This document shows, piece after piece, positions 9,713-14,637 of a stretch of 64,000 nucleotides of DNA; the stretch's first letter is position 1; every line of letters starts with the position of its first letter. The notes beneath the pieces were generated by a model. That model was given only the letters and a program-made list of their open reading frames with translations. It did not search any database and was not told where the DNA came from. The translations under genes were made by a program, and so were the position numbers. The stretch spans positions 1 to 64,000 of the forward strand of contig CAMKTS010000015.1 in assembly GCA_946415755.1 (NCBI GenBank), written 5' to 3'. This DNA comes from an uncultured Prevotella sp. (lineage in GTDB: Bacteria; Bacteroidota; Bacteroidia; Bacteroidales; Bacteroidaceae).

Positions 9713-9829
9713 TTGCCCGACATGCGCGCACTTGACAAGGATTTTTTTCAGTGCCCCTCAGGATATAATCTTTTGAAAGTAGCATATCTTGCACTGAATA
9801 CTGATACCCAATGGGTTACGTGTATATTT

Positions 9830-9901
9830 CCTACACTGAATCCTACACTGAATCCTACACTGAAACCTACACTGAAACCTACACTGAAACCTACACTGCG
9901 G
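9830..9901 (+). repeat. 12-bp tandem repeat CCTACACTGAAW, about 6 units
   Basis: Units at 9830, 9842, 9854, 9866, 9878 and 9890 (last one degenerate). Confidence 0.97.
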
Positions 9902-9990: not shown

Positions 9991-10344
9991 ATGATGGAAC
10001 AGACTGTATTTGAACTTGATTTATTAGAAGAGGCGCGCGACTTCTTGAAATCTCTGACAAAGGAGATCCGTGGCAAGATAGGTCACAACATCCGTAGGGT
10101 TCAGAAGGGAGAACGCGATAAGGAACTCTTCAAGAAATTAGATGGAACGGAGATATGGGAGTTTCGTACTCTCTACAACAAAACCTACTATAGATTATTT
10201 GCCTTTTGGGATAAAGACGAGAATACGCTGGTTGTAGCGACTCATGGCATCATTAAGAAGTCACAGAAAACACCCCAAAGTGAGATTACAAAGGCAGAAG
10301 GAATCAGAAAGCTGTATTTTGAAAATAAAAACAAGAAGATATGA
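9991..10344 (+). CDS. higB: type II toxin HigB / phage Gp49-like (RelE superfamily)
   Basis: FELDLLEEARDFLKSLTKEIRGKIGHNIRRVQKGERDKELFKKLDGTEIWEFRTLYNKTYYRLFAFWD; 4-bp overlap with an XRE antitoxin. Confidence 0.85.
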   Translation: MMEQTVFELDLLEEARDFLKSLTKEIRGKIGHNIRRVQKGERDKELFKKLDGTEIWEFRTLYNKTYYRLFAFWDKDENTLVVATHGIIKKSQKTPQSEITKAEGIRKLYFENKNKKI

Positions 10345-10673
10345 AAAAGGTCGGAAACATGAAACTGTATAGCTTTGAAGAATTGCTGGAAGAAGATTAC
10401 GGCAAGGTAGGCACTCCAGAGCGTGATGCATTCGAACAGAGTGTTGACGAAGCTGTTCAGGCCTATCGCGTAGGCGAAGCCATCAAGCAGGCACGTGAAG
10501 CCCAGAAACTTACCCAAGCTGAATTGGGCGAGAAGATGGGTGTGCAGCGTGCTCAAGTCTGCCGTTTAGAGAGTGGAAAGAGCATCACCCTTTCCTCTAT
10601 GATGCGTGCTTTCCGTGCATTGGGAGTACAGGTTGCACTCGAAATGAAAGGAATAGGCAAAGTGGCTCTATGA
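10341..10673 (+). CDS. higA: HigA-type XRE antitoxin
   Basis: HTH segment AIKQAREAQKLTQAELGEKMGVQRAQVCRLESGKSITLSSMMRAFRALGVQV. Confidence 0.87.
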   Translation: MKKVGNMKLYSFEELLEEDYGKVGTPERDAFEQSVDEAVQAYRVGEAIKQAREAQKLTQAELGEKMGVQRAQVCRLESGKSITLSSMMRAFRALGVQVALEMKGIGKVAL

Positions 10674-10851: not shown

Positions 10852-10898
10852 TTCAGTGTAGGATTCAGTGCTGGATTCAGTGTAGGATTCAGTGTAGG
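10852..10898 (-). repeat. 12-bp tandem repeat, inverted copy of the 9830 array
   Basis: TTCAGTGTAGG ATTCAGTGCTGG ATTCAGTGTAGG ATTCAGTGTAGG; reverse complement matches 9830-9876 at 44/47. Confidence 0.95.
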
Positions 10899-10996
10899 AA
10901 AATCTGCATAAAGCTCTGATAGTCAATGCTCAGTGCAGGATATGCGACTTTTTCTGGTGTGGCATTTCTAGTGCGCGTATATGCGAAGGCAAAAAA

Positions 10997-11352: not shown

Positions 11353-12354
11353 TCAGCTGACAGTCCACGTGTCGTTGGTCTCGAGCAGCTCGGTGAAGTT
11401 ATGGTACTTCTTCTGGGCAGAGACCTCGGCAAGCTGTGCATGGACGGCCTCGTCGTAGGTGGGTGCCTCAACATCGCGGATGACTCCCAGGGCGATGGGG
11501 AAGCCGTCGCCGTTGCCCATGAGGGCGAGCTTCAGCTGCAGGGTGTTGTCCTCGCAGTGGGCATCGTGAACCAATACATCATCGAGGGTGTAACCGTCCT
11601 TGCCAATCTCGACCACCTTCAGGCCGAAGCCCTGCTGAACGAGTCCGAACTCGTTGTTCTCACCGAAGACGAGTTTCTCGCCATGACGCACGTAGATGGC
11701 ATTCTTCTTGCGGCCCTCCTTGTTATATACGGCCTCATGGCAGCCGTCGTTGAAGATGACGCAGTTCTGCAGCACCTCGGTGACGGAGGCTCCCTTGTGC
11801 TGGTAGGCGGCCTTCAGCACCTCGACGGTACCCTGGGCATCAGTAGCCACGCAACGGGCGAAGAAATGGCCACGGGCACCGAAGCACAGCTCGGCAGGAC
11901 GGAACGGATCCTCGACGGTGCCGTAAGGACTGGACTTCGACACGAATCCACGGGGTGAGGTGGGGGAGTATTGTCCCTTCGTCAGACCGTAGATGCGGTT
12001 GTTCAACAGAATCATGTTCAGGTCGATGTTACGACGGTTGGCATGGATGAAGTGGTTGCCGCCGATGGCCAGACCGTCACCGTCGCCACTGACCTGCCAT
12101 ACCGTGAGGTTGGGGTTGGCCACCTTCGCACCGGTGGCGATGGCTGCGGCACGGCCGTGGATGGTGTTCATACCATACGTGGCCATGTAGTGGGGCAGAC
12201 GGCTGGAACAGCCGATACCGCTGATGACGGCTACGTTCTCGGGGGCTACGCCAATCTCGGCCATAGCCTTATGGAGTGAAGCCAGGAAGAAGTGGTCGCC
12301 ACAACCAGGGCACCACCGGGGCTGGCCTTTCTTAAAATCTTGTGCTGTATACAT
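11353..12354 (-). CDS. korB: 2-oxoacid:ferredoxin oxidoreductase subunit beta
   Basis: 333 aa; RWCPGCGDHFFLASLHKAMAEIG...SGIGCSSRLPHYMATYGMNTIHGRA; TPP-binding GDGDGLAIGGNH. Confidence 0.92.
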   Translation of the reverse strand: MYTAQDFKKGQPRWCPGCGDHFFLASLHKAMAEIGVAPENVAVISGIGCSSRLPHYMATYGMNTIHGRAAAIATGAKVANPNLTVWQVSGDGDGLAIGGNHFIHANRRNIDLNMILLNNRIYGLTKGQYSPTSPRGFVSKSSPYGTVEDPFRPAELCFGARGHFFARCVATDAQGTVEVLKAAYQHKGASVTEVLQNCVIFNDGCHEAVYNKEGRKKNAIYVRHGEKLVFGENNEFGLVQQGFGLKVVEIGKDGYTLDDVLVHDAHCEDNTLQLKLALMGNGDGFPIALGVIRDVEAPTYDEAVHAQLAEVSAQKKYHNFTELLETNDTWTVS

Positions 12355-12356
12355 TT

Positions 12357-12386
12357 TAATTAAGAATTAAGAGTTAAGAATTAAGA
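12357..12386. repeat. 30-bp terminal inverted repeat, left arm (AATTAAG heptads)
   Basis: taattaagaattaagagttaagaattaaga; 29/30 identical to the reverse complement of 12774-12803. Confidence 0.97.
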
Positions 12387-12769
12387 AAATCACTTTGAGC
12401 ATTGTCATACTTCGTTGTGTTTTCTTTTGTTGTTTTTACAATAGAAGCTAGAATCGCTGTTAGCTCATCTGCTTCTTGATGAAGAGAGTTAAACGATAAA
12501 TCGTCAATATATTCACTGTCATGTAAGAGTTCAATCCAATATAGAGTTTCATTGGCTTCTTTTAATGCGATGGATGCTTTATTGACAAAGTCTGCGCGAC
12601 TCTGTGCGAACTTGGCTTCTCGCATCAAAGCACCTATAGACGTTCCACTACGTAACAACTGCTTTGACAAAACATATTCATCTTTTTGCTTAGTCAAATA
12701 TTTGTATGCCTTTACTATACGTAAAGCAAACAGATACGAACGCTTCTCTATGGGATTGTCTTGAGTCAT
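12374..12769 (-). CDS. four helix bundle protein (23S rRNA intervening sequence / S23 family)
   Basis: 131 aa; KRSYLFALRIVKAYKYLTKQKDEYVLSKQLLRSGTSIGALMREAKFAQSRADFVNKASIALKEANETLYWIELL. Confidence 0.9.
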   Translation of the reverse strand: MTQDNPIEKRSYLFALRIVKAYKYLTKQKDEYVLSKQLLRSGTSIGALMREAKFAQSRADFVNKASIALKEANETLYWIELLHDSEYIDDLSFNSLHQEADELTAILASIVKTTKENTTKYDNAQSDFLNS

Positions 12770-12773
12770 TCTT

Positions 12774-12803
12774 TCTTAATTCTTAACTCTTAACTCTTAA
12801 TTA
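12774..12803. repeat. 30-bp terminal inverted repeat, right arm
   Basis: tcttaattcttaactcttaactcttaatta. Confidence 0.97.
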
Positions 12804-14637
12804 GTTTTTCGAACTCGGCAACGAGTTCAGAAACAATGAAAGGCTGTCCTTTGACTTGGTTAAATTGATAGGGTACGAAGTTGTCGACCTTCATGCGGAG
12901 GTAGGCAGCGAGCTGGCCCATGTTCTGTTCGGCCACGACCACCTTCTTGTACTTGGAGAGTACCTCGGCAGTGTTCTGGGGCAGGGGATTGAGGAACTTG
13001 AACTGTGCCTGGGCCACCTTATGACCTTGGGCGCGCAGCTCGTCCATCGCAGAGTGCAGATGACCGTAGGTGCTGCCAAAGCCCACAATGAGCAGGTCGG
13101 CATCATCCTTGTCGCCCTCAACCTCGAGGTCGGGAACCTGGATGTTGTCTATCTTCTGCTGGCGCAGACGTGTCATCAGGTCGTGGTTCTCAGGATTGGT
13201 GGAGATGGCTCCCGTCTGGTTGTCCTTCTCCAGACCGCCGAGGATATGCGTGAAGCCCTCGCGACCGGGCACGGCCCAATAGCGGGTGCCATTCTCGGCA
13301 CGCATATAGGGAGTCCATTTGCCCTTCAGTTCCTCAGGAACATACGGCGGATTGATGGTGTCGAGCTTATTGATGTCGGGCAGACGGAAGGCTCCGCTGC
13401 CGTTGGCCACATAGGCATCGGTGAGCAGTACAACGGGGGTCATGTGCTCCAAGGCAATCTTGGCTGCCTGATAGACGGCATCGAAGCAGTCGGTGGGACT
13501 TAGGGCGGCGATGACGGGCATCGGACTCTCGCCGTTGCGGCCGAAGAGTACCTGCAGCAGGTCGGTCTGTTCCGACTTGGTGGGAAGTCCCGTAGCAGGA
13601 CCGCCGCGCTGTACGTCGATGACCACCAGCGGCAGCTCCATGATGACAGCGAGGTTCATGGCCTCCGACTTCAGGCAGATGCCAGGGCCGGAGGTGGACG
13701 TTACGGCCAGGGCACCGGCAAACGAGGCACCGAGGGCCGAGGCGGCACCGCTGATCTCGTCTTCACACTGTACGGTGATGACACCGCATGACTTGTGCTT
13801 CGACAACTCGTGCAGGATGTCGGTGGCAGGAGTGATGGGGTAGGAGCCTAAGTAGAGGCGCAGACCTGCCTTCTCGGCAGCTGCTATCAGTCCGTAGGCC
13901 GTAGCCTTATTGCCCGTAATGTCCATATAGCGGCCGGGCACCTTCTCCTTCGACTCGACGCGGTAGACGTTCATGGCACTGGAGTGCGTGTTGTGACCGT
14001 AGTCGTAGCCTGCCTGCACCACCTTGATGTTGTTCTCGGCAATGGCGGGTTTCTTGGCAAACTTCTCGCGCAGGAAGTTGAACACCAGCTCCAAGTCGCG
14101 GTCGAAGAGCCAGCAGACGAGGCCCAGTGCAAACATGTTGCGCGACTTCAGCATCACCTTGTTGTCCATGCCCGTATCCTTCAGACAGTCCTTTACCATT
14201 GTGGTCAGCGGACACTGGATGACGCGGTCGGGGTCGATATGCATCTCGCCCAGATAGTCTTCAGTCTGAAACTGTGCCTTTTCCAAATCCTTCGGGCCGA
14301 AGGAGTCGGTGTCGATGATGATCGTCGCACCGGGCTTCGCATAGCGGTACTGCGTCTTCAGCGCAGCGGCATTCATTGCCACCAGCACGTCGCACTTGTC
14401 GCCAGGGGTGTACACCCGTCCGGCACCGATGTGTACCTGAAAGCCGCTGACACCCGTCAGCGAACCTTGCGGAGCGCGGATGTCGGCAGGATAGTCGGGG
14501 AATGTAGATATCCCGTTGCCTACCGTGGCACTCACGGTAGAGAAAATGTTTCCGGCCAGCTGCATGCCGTCACCGGAGTCTCCAGAGAACCGGACAACTA
14601 CCTGGTCCAGTTGCTTCACTTCTAATTTTTCTGCCAT
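12790..14637 (-). CDS. korA: 2-oxoacid:acceptor oxidoreductase subunit alpha
   Basis: MAEKLEVKQLDQVVVRFSGDSGDGMQLAGNIFS...; start taken as the ATG at 14637 rather than the ORF-track start. Confidence 0.92.
   Translation of the reverse strand: MAEKLEVKQLDQVVVRFSGDSGDGMQLAGNIFSTVSATVGNGISTFPDYPADIRAPQGSLTGVSGFQVHIGAGRVYTPGDKCDVLVAMNAAALKTQYRYAKPGATIIIDTDSFGPKDLEKAQFQTEDYLGEMHIDPDRVIQCPLTTMVKDCLKDTGMDNKVMLKSRNMFALGLVCWLFDRDLELVFNFLREKFAKKPAIAENNIKVVQAGYDYGHNTHSSAMNVYRVESKEKVPGRYMDITGNKATAYGLIAAAEKAGLRLYLGSYPITPATDILHELSKHKSCGVITVQCEDEISGAASALGASFAGALAVTSTSGPGICLKSEAMNLAVIMELPLVVIDVQRGGPATGLPTKSEQTDLLQVLFGRNGESPMPVIAALSPTDCFDAVYQAAKIALEHMTPVVLLTDAYVANGSGAFRLPDINKLDTINPPYVPEELKGKWTPYMRAENGTRYWAVPGREGFTHILGGLEKDNQTGAISTNPENHDLMTRLRQQKIDNIQVPDLEVEGDKDDADLLIVGFGSTYGHLHSAMDELRAQGHKVAQAQFKFLNPLPQNTAEVLSKYKKVVVAEQNMGQLAAYLRMKVDNFVPYQFNQVKGQPFIVSELVAEFEKLIKS

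Follow-up and report, generated by a model that had tools for sequence, protein, structure and literature searches.

Introduction

The closest described counterparts of the element studied here are the intervening sequences (IVSs) of bacterial 23S rRNA genes. Such IVSs are cut out of the precursor RNA by RNase III without ligation, and a subset of them carries an S23p ORF. The 23S IVS of Coxiella combines a terminal stem of 28 bp with an ORF for an S23 protein. This ORF is preceded by variable heptamers in tandem (GACAGAT), which were described as strain variation, and RNase III excises the IVS in vitro (PMC4990558). What rRNA IVSs and S23 do, and where they come from, has been under question for decades and is called unclear in PMC4990558. 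BT_0352 from Bacteroides thetaiotaomicron is an S23 protein with a solved structure. Arrays of another heptamer, TAACTGA, are known in Beggiatoaceae and cyanobacteria, where their cause is not known (PMC4679880).

We analyzed an S23 cassette in a 64,000-nucleotide window (the whole stretch of DNA under study) from an uncultured Prevotella sp. Like the 23S rRNA IVSs of Coxiella burnetii and Leptospira, the cassette has one S23 gene, complementary ends of about 28–32 nt and a total length of about 430–450 nt, and as in Coxiella tandem heptamers are found beside the S23 gene. Unlike the rRNA IVSs, it lies between the protein genes of an operon, spanning stop to start codon, and ORF-less and solo-arm relatives of it are scattered through the genus. 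The arrangement also resembles REPIN/RAYT systems (PMC3116915), in which a single gene is flanked by inverted repeats and the repeat is dispersed as inverted pairs and singles, mostly between genes. RAYT, however, is a Y1-type (IS200/IS605-like) transposase, whereas S23 is a four-helix bundle without a nuclease, and the S23 repeats are tandem heptads rather than one palindrome. In contrast to insertion sequences and transposons, the S23 cassette encodes no transposase. Intergenic heptamer arrays of Beggiatoaceae, cyanobacteria, and Bacteroidetes share the tandem heptamers, often positioned shortly before a start codon, but that report discusses neither S23 genes nor inverted S23 cassettes, and the term S23 is absent from it (PMC4679880). 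Finally, Avd of diversity-generating retroelements is a homologous pentameric four-helix bundle (PDB ID 4DWL, TM 0.68; PMC10053308); Avd acts with a reverse transcriptase and a template repeat, neither of which is part of the S23 cassette. We found no paper on a general link between S23 and heptamers in the literature searched, which was mostly open-access.

Results

An S23 Gene between Inverted Heptad Arms Separates korA and korB

On the minus strand of the window, korA lies upstream, the S23 cassette in the middle, and korB downstream. korA (12790–14637, minus strand) encodes the alpha subunit of a 2-oxoacid oxidoreductase (TIGR03710, 1e-197), and korB (11353–12354, minus strand, ATG at 12352–12354) encodes the beta subunit (PorB_KorB model TIGR02177, 1.8e-73, slightly below the model cut-off). 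With both flanks identified by HMM as korA and korB, the cassette is not within an rRNA gene. The 5′ arm, upstream in operon sense (12772–12803, minus strand), consists of the tandem heptads TAATTAAGAGTTAAGAGTTAAGAATTAAGAAA, and the 3′ arm (12357–12388, minus strand) carries tandem heptads inverted to those of the 5′ arm and overlaps the end of the S23 ORF. The arms are 32 nt long, match at 31 of 32 positions (97% complementary) and are spaced by 383 nt. An earlier note on this DNA had described 30-nt inverted repeats, which we confirm with 29 of 30 positions matching; the tandem heptad makeup of the arms, (TTAAGAR)n when read in operon sense, had been missed. The korA stop codon (12790–12792) is located inside the 5′ arm, as claimed there, and the arm supplies the last korA codons as well. 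The 3′ arm ends 2 nt short of the korB start codon. The arms reach a local alignment score of 29.5, compared with a maximum of 16.5 for random window pairs of the same geometry, and the cassette RNA folds 6 s.d. below shuffled sequences. By arm match, folding, and random-pair comparison, the complementary ends are capable of forming a long stem.

The S23 gene (12374–12769, minus strand) encodes a four-helix-bundle protein of 131 amino acids and is the only long sense-strand ORF of the cassette, in agreement with the sole-ORF claim. It matches PF05635 (7e-26, 91 bits, curated cut-off 33.8) and TIGR02436 (1e-29, 102.6 bits, curated cut-off 24). Its AlphaFold model (pLDDT 92.6) finds 2RLD and 2GSC as best matches among solved structures and also matches Avd (4DWL). 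S23 is pentameric in solved structures (2RLD, with five chains, and 2GSC). The earlier note had likened this layout to that of an IVS, and an S23 ORF enclosed by complementary ends is indeed what we observe. We found no transposase in the cassette, S23 being its only ORF. No flanking direct repeat stands out as a target-site duplication around the arms, which abut the korA stop and the korB start, and the sample contains no closely related strain pair. An assignment of S23 to an anti-phage defense family was considered and dropped, as PADLOC returned no match.

S23 Is Patchily Distributed at korA-korB Junctions

We classified 111 korA-korB junctions of the genus. The junction is clean in most relatives and S23 presence is patchy, which settles the search for an empty site that had been proposed for this locus: 67 junctions are short (median 21 nt), 8 contain S23, 18 contain GxxExxY (TIGR04256), 3 contain a small DUF559 gene, and 15 are intermediate. 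Several of the intermediate junctions have leftover inverted repeats. Gene-less junctions that retain inverted repeats (L073, L081, L158, L174, L179, L183, and L187) are likely deletion derivatives. S23 could instead belong to the korAB operon as an accessory gene, perhaps a regulator, that has inverted repeats by chance, and its sense orientation inside the operon fits such a role. We regard this as very improbable: S23 is missing in most relatives, GxxExxY or DUF559 cassettes occupy the same site instead, and S23 is also present in unrelated operons.

On the KorA/KorB tree, the distribution of S23 requires 6 changes, that of GxxExxY 9, and that of DUF559 3. The S23 genes located at korAB cluster together in the S23 tree (support 51, weak) but are scattered in the KorAB tree; one row of the S23 tree (L297) was misread by automatic ORF picking and, together with some decayed genes, was excluded from our conclusions. 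S23 identity does not track KorAB identity, with 82% for S23 versus 79% for KorAB between L067 and L098, and 66% versus 86% between L098 and L100. The grouping of the S23 genes and the mismatch in identities suggest, without proving, that S23 was transferred into the same site. A single move of an ordinary rRNA-type IVS into the operon, followed by vertical inheritance and many losses and with no present mobility, would account for the grouping of the korAB S23 genes, for their one shared heptad type, and for the clean short junctions of most relatives. Such a history sits poorly with the scattered presence and its 6 changes on the KorAB tree, with the discordant identities of the two pairs above, and with other S23 lineages at many further loci, and we consider it quite unlikely.

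Heptad Arms Accompany S23 Genes in Many Phyla

A search for other S23 genes with flanking inverted repeats, also suggested in the earlier note, located arms at 27 of 30 S23 loci in the genus and at 65 of 80 named S23 loci from public genomes of several phyla, with period 7 in 64 of the 65. The named loci come from Bacteroidota, from isolates of Alcanivorax, Okeania, and Propionigenium, and from metagenomic genomes labelled Campylobacterota, Bacillota, Fibrobacter, and others. Arms around S23 have a median length of 31 nt, i.e. about four tandem heptads, and the arm pairs are inverted in 65 cases and direct in 9. Control ORFs of the same loci have arms in 1 of 89 cases, compared with 65 of 79 for S23 (Fisher p 2e-31), and the lag-7 autocorrelation is 0.47 adjoining S23 versus 0.26–0.30 in controls. 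In a phylum-wide S23 sample chosen by HMM score, the arms are more degenerate, with clear ones at 11 of 30 loci; period 7 is retained. The heptad sequence varies widely from lineage to lineage.

The named S23 loci are placed in sense, co-directional with the upstream gene in 62 of 63 cases and with the downstream gene in 52 of 60. The element fits closely between its neighbors, with a median of 2 nt from the upstream stop codon to the arm and of 12 nt from the arm to the next start codon. Armed S23 genes are found in housekeeping operons, at korA-korB, the prfB region, serC-serA, rluD-murC, murA-hisG, and murF, and we detected no Rfam RNA genes at the 20 named S23 loci checked. The spread outside rRNA that had been suspected from this one locus finds signs in its favor, the S23 cassettes being patchy and located in unrelated operons.

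Arms and Heptad Arrays Also Occur without S23

The heptad of the cassette arms forms about 35 other arrays in the genome that contains the window, none with an adjoining S23 gene, and no S23 remnants were found beside these solo arrays. The own-genome arrays lie between co-directional genes and are oriented like the 5′ arm in 22 of 38 cases. A related repeat outside the cassette, (TTAATTC)5 (L056, 43907–43941, plus strand), is likewise a solo array without S23. Two contigs of this genome terminate in (TTAACTC)n arrays (start of L036 and end of L048); long heptad arrays therefore break assembly. At L062 and L051 a small hairpin of the GTCGGGCAT type is flanked by heptad arrays next to a TAnnTTTG promoter-like site, a REPIN-like arrangement without S23.

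The eight genomes whose korAB site carries S23 have 31–518 TTAAGAR array hits, compared with a median of 4 in 107 others (p 3e-5, uncorrected for kinship), and the median number of hits is 0 in genomes without detected S23 and 7 in genomes with S23. When sister species were paired phylogenetically, S23 presence and array number showed a consistent direction, but in too few independent pairs. In one genome (G006) we located seven homologous ORF-less hairpins with heptad arms, each at a different locus. In the lineage with AGTGAAW arms, an 18-nt core, AATTTGCTWCCGC, adjoins the heptads, and S23 copies that share these arms and the core precede different downstream genes. Arm and core together are found at 5–40 places per S23-rich genome, mostly as solo arms, many of them at stop/start junctions, and the ORF-less hairpins with the core span 27–78 nt. 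The core was found 0 times in 13 distant S23-less genomes, and the reversed-pattern control for it also gave 0; two close relatives in which S23 was undetected (G018 and G020) do contain some arm-core copies. The reversed-pattern control is informative for AATTGAY and the 18-nt core. For TTAAGAR and AGTGAAW it is uninformative, since an array of these heptads looks much the same when reversed.

The heptad arrays may alternatively be a host feature in which S23 genes merely settle or survive. They would then be slippage-prone intercistronic linkers that offer a stop codon in every frame and an A-rich region for the next start, and inverted arms would arise by recombination of S23 gene ends with genomic arrays. 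Most own-genome arrays are without S23 and located between stop and start codons, the number of TTAAGAR array hits ranges from 0 to 518 between species, and the TAACTGA arrays of Beggiatoaceae and cyanobacteria are without a known cause (PMC4679880), all of which speaks for this explanation. It leaves unexplained why inverted arm pairs outnumber direct ones (65 versus 9), why they are nearly absent at control genes, why period 7 accompanies S23 across phyla, and why the 18-nt core is joined to heptads in both S23 and ORF-less copies. We judge it unlikely. The earlier note had named heptads at S23-less sites, combined with no RNA processing, as speaking against an IVS-type element; of the two, S23-less heptad arrays do occur at many places, but they look more like related solo copies than like grounds for dismissing the element.

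Other Small Genes Have Repeat Arms of Their Own

The other occupants of the korA-korB junction, GxxExxY and DUF559 cassettes, have their own inverted arms. Such arms (score 14 or more) were present in each of the 17 GxxExxY cassettes tested at korA-korB, with a complementarity of 22.2 within and 11.9 across cassettes (0 of 10000 permutations). The GxxExxY loci are L072, L086–L088, L128, L130, L131, L134, L137, L142, L145–L147, L149, L154, L160, and L184. Here and elsewhere the GxxExxY arms are inverted with a period of about 9, e.g. ACCACGAATTTAACGAATTAAACGAATT. Small DUF559 genes (L075, L144, L165, L237, L239, L241, L243, L246, and L258–L260) are often found within inverted GC-rich arms, e.g. 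GCCCCCGAGGGGGC, whereas DUF559 domains of long proteins mostly are not. Within the window, a HigB/HigA-like pair (Gp49 family and HTH, 9991–10673) is located between inverted repeats at 9827–9876 and 10852–10901. These repeats are 50 nt long, 94% complementary, and built from a 12-nt tandem unit (TCCTACACTGAA), following the logic of the S23 cassette with another period.

Arm Pairs Change Type Together between Lineages

We compared arm complementarity within and between copies. Among 15 arm pairs of one lineage, self complementarity is 34.4/40 and cross complementarity 35.05/40, in a comparison limited by the little divergence within the lineage. Because the arms of one copy fit no better than those of other copies, the comparison does not demonstrate that an RNA stem evolves by compensatory change. 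Between lineages, self complementarity exceeds cross complementarity, and both arms of a lineage therefore change type together, by whatever process.

Discussion

IVSs with S23, the structure of S23, and heptamer arrays in some genomes were already known. What is new, as far as we have found, is that in many phyla the S23 genes located outside rRNA generally form intercistronic cassettes with heptad arms, that gene-less relatives of these are dispersed in genomes, and that rRNA IVSs fit as a special case of the S23 element. The S23 cassette is real and widespread, and had previously been recognized mainly in its ribosomal form.

The reading we favor, and hold to be reasonably likely, is that the korA-korB cassette represents one copy of a widespread S23 element that spreads between cistrons. 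Spread is inferred because the copies are patchy and dispersed. Several results count against this reading: compensatory changes were not seen within a lineage, clear arms are in the minority in the phylum-wide sample, heptad arrays are also common away from S23 and may have a cause of their own, the korAB S23 grouping is weakly supported, and no transposase or flanking direct repeat stands out. As the Coxiella IVS carries heptamers beside S23 too, the rRNA IVSs look like a special case, and those that carry S23 probably represent this element at a different landing site.

The unit would behave as a spreading mobile repeat whose derivatives are the S23-carrying copies and the ORF-less hairpins or solo arms, by analogy with REPIN/RAYT. 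The S23 pentamer would recognize the heptads as RNA or single-stranded DNA, and our best guess is that new copies would arise via host replication or recombination on heptad arrays or hairpins. Stop codons in the heptads and an A-rich stretch ahead of the next ATG would keep an insertion harmless. In the korA-S23-korB transcript, the arms would pair into a stem of roughly 30 bp, which RNase III could cut, as in the rRNA IVSs, freeing the S23 RNA and splitting the korA and korB messages; stem and processing are predicted from the layout of the cassette and by comparison with rRNA IVSs.

It is possible, and we put it forward only tentatively, that S23 represents a new kind of mobile element without transposase or nuclease and, more broadly, that unrelated small genes travel as tandem-repeat-armed cassettes. 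If so, pentameric S23 would propagate heptad arms, with itself, as bare hairpins, or solo, into mRNA stop/start junctions and occasionally into rRNA. The set of cassettes would comprise S23 with period 7, GxxExxY with period 9, small DUF559 genes with GC-rich palindromes, and the HigBA-like pair with period 12, and several of these armed types would share landing sites such as korA-korB.

S23 thereby gains a general setting, as the gene of cassettes that sit with their heptad arms at the stop/start junctions of mRNAs across many phyla. The element is also a candidate to explain the intergenic heptamer arrays reported from cyanobacteria, Beggiatoaceae, and Bacteroidetes.
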